Assembly: GCA_016839705.1 (NCBI GenBank)
Contig: JAEOTR010000079.1
Span: forward strand, 1-64,000
DNA: 64,000 bases
Source: Promethearchaeota archaeon
GTDB lineage: Archaea > Asgardarchaeota > Lokiarchaeia > Sigyniarchaeales > SOKP01
Direction: 5' to 3'
Shown: positions 43,309 through 59,349 of the stretch, piece by piece
Layout of the letters: every line of letters begins with the position of its first letter
How positions within the stretch are numbered: the stretch's first letter is position 1
The notes under the pieces: model-generated
Told to the model about the DNA's origin: nothing
Seen by the model: only the letters and a program-made list of their open reading frames with translations
The model's database searches: none
Made by a program: the position numbers and the translations under genes

Positions 43309-43380
43309 GCGCTCGTTGTGTAGTGGCTATCATCCAGGACTTCCAATTCTGGGACCCGGGTTCAATTCCCGGCGGGCGCA
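43309..43380 (+). tRNA. tRNA-Gly (TCC), no intron
   Basis: A 72-base cloverleaf. Acceptor GCGCTCG pairs with CGGGCGC followed by A73. The D arm, an anticodon arm with loop CTTCCAA (anticodon TCC), and a T arm CCGGG-TTCAATT-CCCGG are complete. CCA is not encoded. A TATA-like TTTATTTTATA lies about 30 bases upstream (43273-43283). This is the only tRNA gene in the window without an intron. Confidence 0.93.
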
Positions 43381-49993: not shown

Positions 49994-50195
49994 GCCAAGG
50001 TGGCGTAGCCCGGTTCATCGCGTTAGAGCTCCTTATTGTAGGGTAAGAACGCACCAGATTCATCGGAGTTACCGATAAAGGTGAAACTGAAGATCTGGGT
50101 ATCGAGAAAAAATTGGGTCTCTTCGACCGTTTTCGGGAAGGTTCAAAAGAAAAACCCGCATTCGAGCTTTTTGGGAACTCCCTCCCTTGGCACCA
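49994..50195 (+). tRNA. tRNA-Phe (GAA) with four apparent introns, CCA encoded
   Basis: 202 bases that reduce to a standard tRNA-Phe of about 76 after removing four insertions. Acceptor GCCAAGG (49994-50000) pairs with CCTTGGC (50185-50191), followed by A73 and encoded CCA. D stem GCGT (50003-50006)/ACGC (50049-50052) encloses an insertion of about 31 bases. Anticodon stem CCAGA (50054-50058) and loop-stem CTGAAGA-TCTGG (50087-50098) are split by 28 bases at 31/32. T stem GAG (50104-50106) and GG (50140-50141) are split by 33 bases at 51/52 and pair with CCCTC (50180-50184). The T-loop holds about 31 extra bases. The anticodon is GAA. Intron borders are exact for 31/32 only if splicing follows the stem; others are approximate. 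Confidence 0.85.
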
Positions 50196-51149: not shown

Positions 51150-51680
51150 TTAAGTGAGAATGTCTTTTCTTCTTACATCATATTTTATAAATTCTTGAAA
51201 TTGTTCATTATCCTCATCAATAAACTCCCAAAACTCATCGTAGAGTTCCCGCAGTGTTTTGTCTTTATTTTCTGATTTGATCTGTATCTCTTGTTTTTGA
51301 AAATTCTTAATTTTATTCTGACGATTCGGTATATATTCGAGATAATCCCCCTCTAAGACTAAATTTTCAAATAATTCCTGATCATCTTTGATACTGTTCT
51401 TAGGTTGTTGGTTTTGTTCGATCTTTGTCTTTTCAAATTCAAAATCTACTCTTTGATACCCTCTTACCACAAAATTTTTATCTACAAACGCTTGAAATTG
51501 GTGTTCACAAACTAGACCTCTTGCTATTGACATTGTAGTTAAACCTTTTGTTTTATCAACAATTGATCTAGGAGATTTCAAGCTTTTTTTAGATTTACAA
51601 ACGGGACAGATAAACTGAATCTGGGTAAAATTAGTTGAGGTAATTATTTCGGGGCTTTGGGCTAGTTTAGTAACTGCCAT
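51150..51680 (-). CDS. zinc-ribbon protein with Asgard-type CPxC...VCEH domain
   Basis: The 176-aa protein has FICPVCKSKK near residue 24 and VCEHQFQAFVDKNFVVRGYQ near residue 58. C-x2-C and C-x-H provide four possible zinc ligands. The C-terminal 80 residues are acidic and helical (TLRELYDEFWEFIDEDNEQF). I recall similar CPVCK/VCEHQFQAF modules in Asgard proteins, but cannot check. No enzyme motif. It may be an adaptor. The next gene downstream on this strand is the HAD gene, 155 bases away. Confidence 0.65.
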   Translation of the reverse strand: MAVTKLAQSPEIITSTNFTQIQFICPVCKSKKSLKSPRSIVDKTKGLTTMSIARGLVCEHQFQAFVDKNFVVRGYQRVDFEFEKTKIEQNQQPKNSIKDDQELFENLVLEGDYLEYIPNRQNKIKNFQKQEIQIKSENKDKTLRELYDEFWEFIDEDNEQFQEFIKYDVRRKDILT

Positions 51681-54791: not shown

Positions 54792-54894
54792 TTAATCTTT
54801 TCTTTATTTTTTTTATTTCTTTTATTCAAACAAAACTTTTTATATCATTTTAGTCTATTTTTTGTTATTCCTTACTTATTGGAGATTTAAGCAA

Positions 54895-55563
54895 ATGAAC
54901 GAAGACAGTAAAAATGGATTTGAGAATGAAGAAGAGGATCTTGAAATAAAAGAAGTTGAATTTGATAAAGAGACAGAAAATAAGAAGCAAGAAATTGCTA
55001 CTAAAAAAAAATTAGCTTTTTTATTAGACCAATCAAAAGATTCGGTGGAAGAAAGTAATGAATGGGGTACTTTTAGAATAAGATCAACTAATTCTACCGA
55101 AATTTTAGAAAATGAATCATTTTACAGAACTCCTCTAACAAATGTGATTGAAAATGAGACCGAATATTTTTTTCTTGTAGAATTACCTGGATTGGATAAA
55201 CGACATGTAAATATTACTCTTCAGGAAGATATATTAGAAGTGTTAGGTGAAAAAACGCTAAAACATGTAGAAGAAAAAGAAGAGAAAAAAAAGAAAGAAA
55301 AAAAGGAAGATAAAGAAAAAAAAGATGAGAAGAAAGATAAGCATAAAGATAAAAAAGACAAGAAAAAAGAGAAACACAAAGATCTCAAAGGAGATTTTTT
55401 AAGAAGAGAATTTAGGTCATCCAGCTTCTATAGAAGCTTTGTCCTCCCTGAAGAGATAAATTCAGAAGGTATCGATGCAAGTTTTAAAAATGGCATTCTA
55501 AGATTAAGAATACCCAAAAAGATTACTGAAATTGGGGATAAAAAGACAATTGAAATAAAATAA
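54895..55563 (+). CDS. Hsp20/alpha-crystallin protein with Lys/Glu-rich insertion
   Basis: A 222-aa protein from ATG 54895 (MNEDSKNGFENEEEDLEIKE). An upstream TTG would add 11 unlikely residues. The alpha-crystallin core begins TPLTNVIENETEYFFLVELP and its end is SFVLPEEINSEGIDASFKNG, ILRLRIPKK. About 55 residues of almost only Lys, Glu and Asp (KEEKKKKEKKEDKEKKDEKK onward) are inserted between two core strands. Usual Hsp20 proteins of 140-180 aa lack this. The first 60 residues are acidic. It binds unfolded proteins as an ATP-free chaperone. Confidence 0.85.
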   Translation: MNEDSKNGFENEEEDLEIKEVEFDKETENKKQEIATKKKLAFLLDQSKDSVEESNEWGTFRIRSTNSTEILENESFYRTPLTNVIENETEYFFLVELPGLDKRHVNITLQEDILEVLGEKTLKHVEEKEEKKKKEKKEDKEKKDEKKDKHKDKKDKKKEKHKDLKGDFLRREFRSSSFYRSFVLPEEINSEGIDASFKNGILRLRIPKKITEIGDKKTIEIK

Positions 55564-58254: not shown

Positions 58255-58692
58255 TTGCCACAAGTATATATGCTCAATTCAAAAAGTTTCAGCTCAGTTG
58301 TACACGAATTAGAAAACAACGATGAAGAGTTTGTTACCACAATAGATAGAGTTATTAGTTTTGCGGTAAATATTATTAGGAATACTGAAGAACTTAGAGA
58401 AGAAATTCGAGATTATAATGATTTATATCAAATTCTATTGACTGATATAAATTTTAATTTTTGGTTAAAAGTATCCAATGGTTCTATAATATACAAAAAA
58501 GGGATTAACAGAAGTGCGACATTTAGAGTTACATATGCAAAGGATATTTTCATTAAAATTCTTAAACGCGATATAGCAGGAACGGATGCATATATGAAAG
58601 GTCAAATTAAAGTGGATGGTAATCTGAGTGATGGTTTAAGATTCATTAAAATTTTTAGGTTGTTTATAAAATATATTGAGAATATAATGTAG
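58255..58692 (+). CDS. SCP2-domain-like small protein (first of a tandem pair)
   Basis: A 145-aa protein starting at TTG 58255 or ATG 58270 (LNSKSFSSVVHELENNDEEF). The SCP2-type core reads LLTDINFNFWLKVSNGSII, SATFRVTYAKDIFIKILK and YMKGQIKVDGNLSDGLRFIK. It aligns along its length with the next gene (FWLxV, AYMxGxIxVxGNL). The family binds lipids or acyl chains. It is more basic and diverged than its neighbour. The two are separated by 222 bases on the same strand. Confidence 0.7.
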   Translation: MPQVYMLNSKSFSSVVHELENNDEEFVTTIDRVISFAVNIIRNTEELREEIRDYNDLYQILLTDINFNFWLKVSNGSIIYKKGINRSATFRVTYAKDIFIKILKRDIAGTDAYMKGQIKVDGNLSDGLRFIKIFRLFIKYIENIM

Positions 58693-58914
58693 AAGAGATA
58701 ATTTTCTTTTCATACTTTGAAAGTTTTGAATTTGAACCTGGGTTTTTCAAAAATTTTATTAGTTGTCTCTGGATTCATAGATCTTCTATCAAAAGCGACA
58801 CAAATAAAACCTTTTTATACTACTAAATCCTTTTAATATTGTTATTTTAAAGAATATTCATCTATAATTCTCAAGATAATAGAGAAAAATTATACAAAAA
58901 GGTTGAAAATAAAA

Positions 58915-59349
58915 ATGGTTGATGAATCATTATTAAAGGAAATTAAAGCCGCTCAAGATGCGGGAGCTTCAGCTGCTTCAGCTGATGACGTGAAGAAATC
59001 CCTAGCTTTTATTAAACAAGTTTCTGTAGAAAACGAAGATCTTAAGGAAGAACTCGAAGATATGGATATTGCAATACAGTTAGTTTTTTCTGATGTTGAC
59101 ATAAAGTTCTGGTTGACAGTAAAAGAAGGAGATTTAGATTTTGGGGAAGGTGATGTTGATAATCCCTCATTCACGCTGACCTCCACCCTGGAAGTTGGAG
59201 CGGGAATTGTTATGGGTGAGGTTGATGCGACTTCCGCTTACATGGCTGGTGATATTACCGTTGAGGGCAATCTTCAGGATGCAATGGCCTTTCAAGAGAT
59301 AATTGAACTCGCTCTCGAAGCTTTCGAAGATCTTGTTGAAGATTTATAA
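58915..59349 (+). CDS. SCP2-domain protein (second of a tandem pair)
   Basis: A 144-aa acidic protein from ATG 58915 (MVDESLLKEIKAAQDAGASA). The N-terminal helix is followed by an SCP2 sterol-carrier fold: LVFSDVDIKFWLTVKEGDLD, NPSFTLTSTLEVGAGIVMGE and AYMAGDITVEGNLQDAMAFQ. The hydrophobic groove and the GD-I-V-EGNLQDA strand-helix match bacterial/archaeal SCP2 proteins. It carries lipids or steroid-like molecules. AAAGGTTGA upstream is the probable ribosome-binding site. The gene is followed by a hairpin terminator at 59378. Confidence 0.85.
   Translation: MVDESLLKEIKAAQDAGASAASADDVKKSLAFIKQVSVENEDLKEELEDMDIAIQLVFSDVDIKFWLTVKEGDLDFGEGDVDNPSFTLTSTLEVGAGIVMGEVDATSAYMAGDITVEGNLQDAMAFQEIIELALEAFEDLVEDL

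Follow-up and report, generated by a model that had tools for sequence, protein, structure and literature searches.

Transfer RNA genes with several introns are known from the Thermoproteales, and the relevant passages of the literature on Pyrobaculum and Thermofilum describe non-canonical bulge-helix-bulge (BHB) introns, several per gene, together with an (alpha-beta)2 splicing endonuclease (PMC8450103, PMC4390854, PMC4033280, PMC3218864, PMC4090602). Passages of three of these papers give the number of introns per tRNA gene as "up to three" (PMC8450103, 2021; PMC4033280, 2014; PMC4390854, 2015). Among the Asgard archaea, 92–95% of the tRNA genes of Atabeyarchaeia and Freyarchaeia were described in 2024 as having introns, over half as having several, often non-canonical ones; the main text contains none of the phrases "three introns", "four introns" or "up to four", and no per-gene maximum was found in its passages (PMC11291895). 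Two further genes, as far as the passages on them go, share single features with the locus described here. The tRNA-Ile(UAU) gene of Cyanidioschyzon merolae likewise has introns in the D-, anticodon and T-arms, but is eukaryotic and has three (PMC9602550), and the Lokiarchaeota tRNA-Sec gene likewise has a T-arm intron in a Lokiarchaeal setting, but only that one and in another isotype (PMC5330540). In a literature search covering mainly openly accessible journals, we found no report of a four-intron archaeal tRNA or pre-tRNA.

Here we describe a tRNA-Phe(GAA) gene in a 64,000-nucleotide stretch of Lokiarchaeal DNA (the window). It resembles the Thermoproteal genes in its several non-canonical BHB introns, and presumably in the (alpha-beta)2 type of its endonuclease, and differs from them in having four introns, where the available passages on Thermoproteales put two or three in print, in belonging to the Lokiarchaeia, and in being one of 8 such genes among 45 distinct ones. 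As with the multi-intron genes of Atabeyarchaeia and Freyarchaeia, the host is an Asgard archaeon, but these are other Asgard classes. A first-pass annotation of the window had called multiple non-canonical tRNA introns established in Thermoproteales, which agrees with the two or three per gene in print, and had known of no four-intron tRNA from an Asgard-type genome. The number four does exceed the literature found; multi-intron Asgard tRNA genes as such are already in the available text of PMC11291895. The gene stands out by the number four, the Lokiarchaeal setting and the natural series in relatives, and not by its mechanism.

We consider it highly probable (about 0.92) that this is a working four-intron tRNA-Phe gene, the only one detected in its assembly, with the introns cut out by an (alpha-beta)2 EndA and the exons joined by RtcB. 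Comparison with relatives places the gene on the forward strand at window positions 49994–50192, and the encoded CCA end, absent from several relatives, at 50193–50195, so that five exons, four introns and CCA make up a 202-base locus (49994–50195). Exon 1 (49994–50013) contains tRNA positions 1–19, that is, the 5' strands of the acceptor and D-stems and G18G19. The first intron, at site 19/20, is 33 nt long (50014–50046) and has the central helix GCCC/GGGT with bulges GG-T and AA-G, the hyphen marking the predicted cut. After the 11 nt of exon 2 (positions 20–30; 50047–50057) comes a 28-nt intron at site 30/31 (50058–50085), with central helix CACC/GGTG, bulges AG-A and AA-A and a covarying inner helix. 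Exon 3 (positions 31–51, including the anticodon GAA; 50086–50106) is followed by the 33-nt intron of site 51/52 (50107–50139; central helix ATCG/CGGG with 3/4 pairs, bulges AG-A and AA-G), and the 8 nt of exon 4 (positions 52–59; 50140–50147) by the 31-nt intron of T-loop site 59/60 (50148–50178; central helix TTCA/GGGA with 3/4 pairs, bulges AA-A and AC-T). Exon 5 (50179–50192) holds positions 60–73.

Much of the first-pass annotation survived this comparison. Its 202-base tRNA-Phe locus, with stems that pair only once four inserts are removed, was confirmed by the relatives, gene and boundaries alike, as were two of its insert placements (51/52, 33 nt; T-loop 59/60, 31 nt); the D-loop insert measures 33 and not about 31 nt, and the one placed at 31/32 lies at 30/31. 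Within the window either placement of the latter gives the same product; two relatives (L058 and L065) yield the mature template only at 30/31. The clean GAA tRNA with A73 and CCA was recovered as a 74-nt mature form with 7/7 acceptor, 5/5 anticodon, 5/5 T and 4/4 D-stem pairs, and four BHB-type introns in an Asgard (here Lokiarchaeal) tRNA-Phe remain the best reading. The gene was not detected by ARAGORN or by Rfam at the gathering threshold when these were run on the window, and the sole tRNA that they saw there was a tRNA-Gly (43309–43380). Downstream on the forward strand, a small heat-shock-like ORF whose middle part contains a long lysine/glutamate-rich insert (54862–55563) and two adjacent ORFs that resemble paralogues of one small domain (58255–58692 and 58903–59349) were noticed by eye.

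Homologues were collected by five routes. The window's own genome and 57 relatives were searched with the DNA sequence (28 of the 58 genomes matched) and with an exon pattern allowing 2 mismatches (44 matched, chance cases included). The pattern was also run without mismatches over genome_contigs, where it gave 36 loci, and with 1 mismatch allowed over 83 genomes from the class (43 matched, again including chance cases). Targeted stretches formed the fifth route. Because the genome collections overlap, counts are of distinct gene sequences and not of genomes. Thirty-two of the 36 genome_contigs loci were from Candidatus Lokiarchaeota or Lokiarchaeia, and the other four (L040, L049, L060, L071), bacterial chance matches, were dropped, as were three pattern matches without a parse that look like chance (L209, L217, L218). 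Thirteen loci of the 2-mismatch set that did not fit the template (L154–L163, L166, L167, L175) were also dropped, and the 45-gene count therefore refers to the window's own family type; second near matches with 1–2 mismatches (in G024, G030, G032, G035, G036 and others) were mostly left out. Among the template misfits, six from family f2 of the order (L158–L163) are tRNA-Phe-like by eye; L159 has no intron, and a single insert in the D-loop, the anticodon arm or the T-loop interrupts each of the other five. The other misfits have the appearance of chance matches by eye, L157 and L167 aside.

Each gene was parsed against a mature template, the plain 74-nt tRNA-Phe of two intronless relatives (L067 and L075), under a rule that demanded a 4-nt exon-intron helix with at least 3/4 pairs, 3-nt bulges cut after the second base (2-1), and full acceptor, anticodon and T stems. 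Exactly one solution was obtained for each of the 45 distinct template-fitting genes (38 at first, then 7 from the class search). When any pairing demand was lifted, exact splicing was unique in 13 of 38 genes, with 2–16 solutions in the rest. All 74 distinct introns of the first 32 genes formed the helix, which is partly by construction, as the parse demanded it; with shuffled intron letters a mean of 9.8 and a maximum of 21 of 74 did so. Off-register decoys mostly scored far lower, with diagonal exceptions (72, 65, 50 and 35 of 74) that are expected where the helix extends beyond four pairs. Over all 105 introns, 70 had 4/4 central pairs and the remainder 3/4. Compensatory exon-intron changes were seen at 30/31 (CACC/GGTG, CACT/GGTG, CACT/AGTG) and at 52/53 (TCGG/CCGA, TCAG/CTGA), and covariation extends to the inner helices, as at 59/60 and 30/31. 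Two other parses were discarded. The first splice search, which demanded a regular inner helix, spliced several genes wrongly, the window's D-loop intron included, and was replaced by the exact mature template plus central helix, later widened. A looser dynamic-programming parse misplaced some T-arm introns at 47/48 or 48/49, the window's 51/52 intron among them, because the T-stem was unscored. It also missed L053, and the genes that it had added were parsed again under the strict rule.

The 45 distinct Lokiarchaeal genes form a series from no intron (2 genes) through one (10), two (12) and three (13) to four (8), so that 43 of 45, the window's included, are interrupted. The eight four-intron genes are the window's and L042, L046, L053, L057, L065, L074 and L025 (in G026), and the two naturally intronless 74-nt genes, which supplied the template, serve as natural negative controls. 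As far as seen in these sequences, the four-intron state would belong to the window's family, the neighbouring family looking less split. The 105 introns occupy ten positions: 30/31 (23), 19/20 (20), 59/60 (18), 15/16 (15), 51/52 (12), 58/59 (6), 52/53 (5), 22/23 (2), 53/54 (2) and 37/38 (2). The count at the last of these, the classical site, is biased low, because the exon pattern spans it and misses genes cut there; both known cases came from the DNA search. In one gene (L050, Zod_Metabat.578) two introns, at 15/16 and 19/20, share a single D-loop with 5 exon bases between them.

In the proposed mechanism, the precursor of Lokiarchaeal tRNA-Phe would carry four short introns, each forming a BHB or half-BHB. 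The central helix would join the end of the exon, just before the 5' bulge, to the four intron bases preceding the 3' bulge, and in either bulge the cut would follow the second base. The 4-bp central helix and symmetrically cut 3-nt bulges of the archaeal BHB are found under one 2-1 rule for all introns. In the window the central helix is complete (4/4) at 19/20 and 30/31 and has 3/4 pairs at 51/52 and 59/60, and the flanking helices vary from site to site. At 19/20 the outer helix, the D-stem, has 3/4 pairs and the regular inner helix 1/5; at 30/31 the values are 1/4 and 4/5, and at 51/52 4/4 and 4/5. At 59/60 the outer helix has 3/4 pairs (4/4 once the other introns are removed) and the inner helix 5/5. 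Under the strict hBHBh' definition, two of the window's introns thus fit but for one central mismatch and two are half-motifs; judged by their pairing, the introns at 30/31 and 19/20 look like the HBh' and hBH forms in the terms used in passages of PMC6379350. The first-pass annotation had concluded that relaxed motifs must be accepted by the endonuclease, and this holds for 30/31, which is without the outer helix, and for 19/20, which is without a regular inner one. It holds less well for 51/52 and 59/60, which own both helices, although with central pairs of 3/4.

Among 92 introns, fewer than 3/4 outer pairs were present in 44 in the full precursor and still in 40 with the other introns removed. 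The T-stem is the outer helix of the 59/60 intron and is split by the intron at 51/52, and for that reason the arrangement suggests that the 51/52 intron would be removed before or together with that at 59/60; dependent introns of such a type are described in passages of PMC8450103. In local minimum-energy folds, three or more central pairs appeared in 42 of 88 constructs; when the introns were shuffled, the mean number of such constructs was 1.0 and the highest 3. By site, the proportion was 13/17 at 19/20, 9/12 at 51/52, 8/16 at 30/31, 3/12 at 15/16, 1/6 at 58/59 and 1/15 at 59/60. The window's own constructs formed 4 central pairs at 19/20, 3 at 51/52 and none at 59/60.

This last result bears on the possibility that fewer than four inserts are excised and that one, for example that at 59/60, is kept as an unusual loop. 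The window's 59/60 intron is without its central helix in the local fold, and a single construct of 15 for that site forms one. Retention would nevertheless break the T-arm, D-arm or anticodon stem, and for each of the four sites there are other genes in which the exon sequence runs through uninterrupted. In the 11 distinct 30-nt introns at 59/60, moreover, inner pairs 1–9 are kept in 8–11 of 11 with changes on both sides. We regard retention of an insert as very improbable.

Whole-precursor folding with RNAfold left the central helices unformed in any splicing state (maximum probability 0.18, for one pair), and the same program gave no cloverleaf even for the mature tRNA; as evidence, such predictions may be uninformative or mildly against the splicing model. 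Self-splicing was set aside, since Rfam reported no group I or II intron in the window and 28–33 nt is far below the size of such introns. That the RNA is made and is spliced with the cut sites as predicted we infer from the sequences compared here.

Removal of the four introns would give a 74-nt tRNA with the GAA anticodon and A73. The acceptor (7/7), anticodon (5/5) and T (5/5) stems were required by the parse and were found complete, and the D-stem GCGT/ACGC is 4/4 by sight. After the predicted splicing, the product would thus have the stems, anticodon and conserved loop bases of a functional tRNA-Phe. All exon bases of the window's gene are intact, and its mature sequence is identical to that obtained from five other gene sequences. 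Three of these reach it from other sets of sites (L054 with three introns, L066 with two, L041 with one), and two from the same four sites with diverged introns (L046, L065).

The same comparison weighs against a decayed pseudogene with random insertions whose work is done by an uninterrupted copy elsewhere. Standard tRNA finders do miss the gene, and the assembly is 92.99% complete (6.8% contamination), so a missing copy is possible: one in a gap, or one itself cut within the searched stretch, would escape the search. Decay is hard to reconcile with undamaged exons whose joined sequence is the mature form of five other genes, and random insertion with sites that obey one pairing rule in a family in which 43 of 45 distinct genes are interrupted. 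The first-pass annotation had named an uninterrupted second tRNA-Phe gene as one of the findings that would speak against its reading. A BLAST search with the gene and an exon-pattern search that tolerated up to 3 mismatches found no second tRNA-Phe gene in the 3,356,501-base assembly (3.36 Mb); near matches at C46 and C56 lie inside coding-like sequence. Two genomes of the class, G058 (L193, L216) and G078 (L210, L211), each have two different parsed tRNA-Phe genes on separate contigs, all four of them interrupted; duplication or mixed bins would account for them. Given these two genomes, a second copy is possible in principle in the window's organism too. The working-gene reading is retained, and the pseudogene appears to us very improbable.

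For the excision itself, a heteromeric (alpha-beta)2 splicing endonuclease would cut all eight sites and RtcB would join the five exons. The assembly contains RtcB and one EndA gene of 197 aa with the PF01974 catalytic and PF02778 N-terminal domains (Pfam). The best match of this alpha protein among solved structures was 3p1z_B, which we take to be the A. pernix enzyme, and a lysine of the Lokiarchaeal protein falls opposite residue 44 of that chain in the alignment. According to passages of PMC6379350, the lysine of a Crenarchaea-specific loop (K44 of A. pernix) is linked to relaxed substrates, and relaxed introns are removed efficiently only by (alpha-beta)2 and epsilon2 enzymes. By sequence alignment the loop lysine is thus present in the Lokiarchaeal EndA alpha, and both it and the catalytic histidine motif were found at all 38 alpha loci examined, 30 of which were the best-scoring of a longer list.

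A second, beta-like EndA gene was not found in the window's assembly, and of the endonuclease subunits that the first-pass annotation had proposed to look for elsewhere in the genome, it is the catalytic one that was recovered. The absence looks like an assembly gap. In 47 of 58 genomes, two PF01974 genes exceeded the cut-off, one strong and one weaker. The strong gene alone was present in G000 (the window's assembly), G007, G010 and G019, the weaker alone in G006, G016, G030, G048, G049 and G052, and neither in G036; in the single-EndA assemblies the missing partner is likely to be a gap. All 11 proteins examined of the weaker kind lack the catalytic histidine (3 by alignment, the rest by eye); judged by eye, all 11 retain the lysine and 9 the tyrosine. 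The pair in most relatives is an indication, from gene content, of an (alpha-beta)2 enzyme, and the window's own organism would presumably have the same form.

In the neighbourhood of the tRNA-Phe gene, 28 of the 32 Lokiarchaeal genome_contigs loci have one or more genes homologous to window proteins, and at 20 of the 32 these neighbours include the ORF at 51153–51680; we are therefore dealing mostly with one orthologous locus. On an EndA alpha gene tree of 26 genomes, a minimum of 47 changes in total is needed to explain the ten sites, the tree being weakly resolved (6 of 23 inner branches starred, 13 open). Well-supported pairs differ sharply: G022 has introns at 19/20, 30/31 and 51/52 where G035 has one at 22/23 only, and G011 has two where G001 has none. 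Ten positions in one tRNA of one clade, with close neighbours sharing none, would by these comparisons make a strong case of turnover.

Comparison with L054 (CSMAG_1226) revealed a mosaic. Window positions 49994–50106, including the introns at 19/20 and 30/31, match it in 112 of 113 columns, whereas of the 300-base flanks at most 180 of 333 and 182 of 334 columns align, and six neighbouring proteins are 58–81% identical. The 51/52 intron is missing from L054, and the 59/60 introns of the two genes are only 50% alike; the median identity of 19/20 introns over all gene pairs is 0.59. The simplest account of this pattern would be partial gene conversion or transfer, with the conserved exons acting as homology. 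No second copy of the core of the 30/31 intron, of the kind that intron transposition might leave, was found in the assembly within 3 mismatches.

These data also bear on whether the gene is simply an ordinary multi-intron tRNA of the Thermoproteales or Asgard sort, in which four extends the known distribution. Such a description is compatible with our reading of the gene and differs from it in newness. The multiple non-canonical introns published for Thermoproteales and for Atabeyarchaeia and Freyarchaeia, in the passages cited above, favor it, and so does the agreement of the cut rule and the proposed enzyme type with the pathway already described; against it are a published maximum that those passages state as three, and the turnover at ten positions just described. 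We give it a little less than an even chance. A more far-reaching view, which we put forward tentatively and think rather less probable than not, is that of live intron traffic, in which introns would be exactly gained and lost at ten positions, partly by exchange of segments between lineages, the splicing order would be forced, and tRNAs with four or more introns would be common, with a large part of the tRNA set missed by standard tools.

The last point can be set beside counts from the Rfam tRNA model at an E value of 0.001. An archaeon needs 40 or more tRNAs. The model gave at least 20 matches in the window's assembly, at least 20, 21, 16, 25 and 32 in five other genomes of the phylum, and 12 in G057; the first six counts are lower bounds, with 150 candidates scored for each, while in G057 all 103 of 103 candidates were scored. 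Some of the matches in the window's assembly have inserts in the anticodon arm or variable region, and introns may conceal some of the tRNAs of these genomes. Because ARAGORN and Rfam both miss the window's gene, this suggests that tRNA counts from the usual tools are too low for such genomes.

The four introns of the window's gene raise the number per tRNA gene from three, the maximum in the literature found, to four, and the gene that holds them belongs to the Asgard archaea. Eukaryotes are relatives of this group, and their own tRNA endonuclease has been proposed to descend from an (alpha-beta)2 enzyme (passages of PMC6379350). With one gene that carries from none to four introns at ten sites in the Lokiarchaeia, the gain, loss and splicing order of tRNA introns become directly testable.
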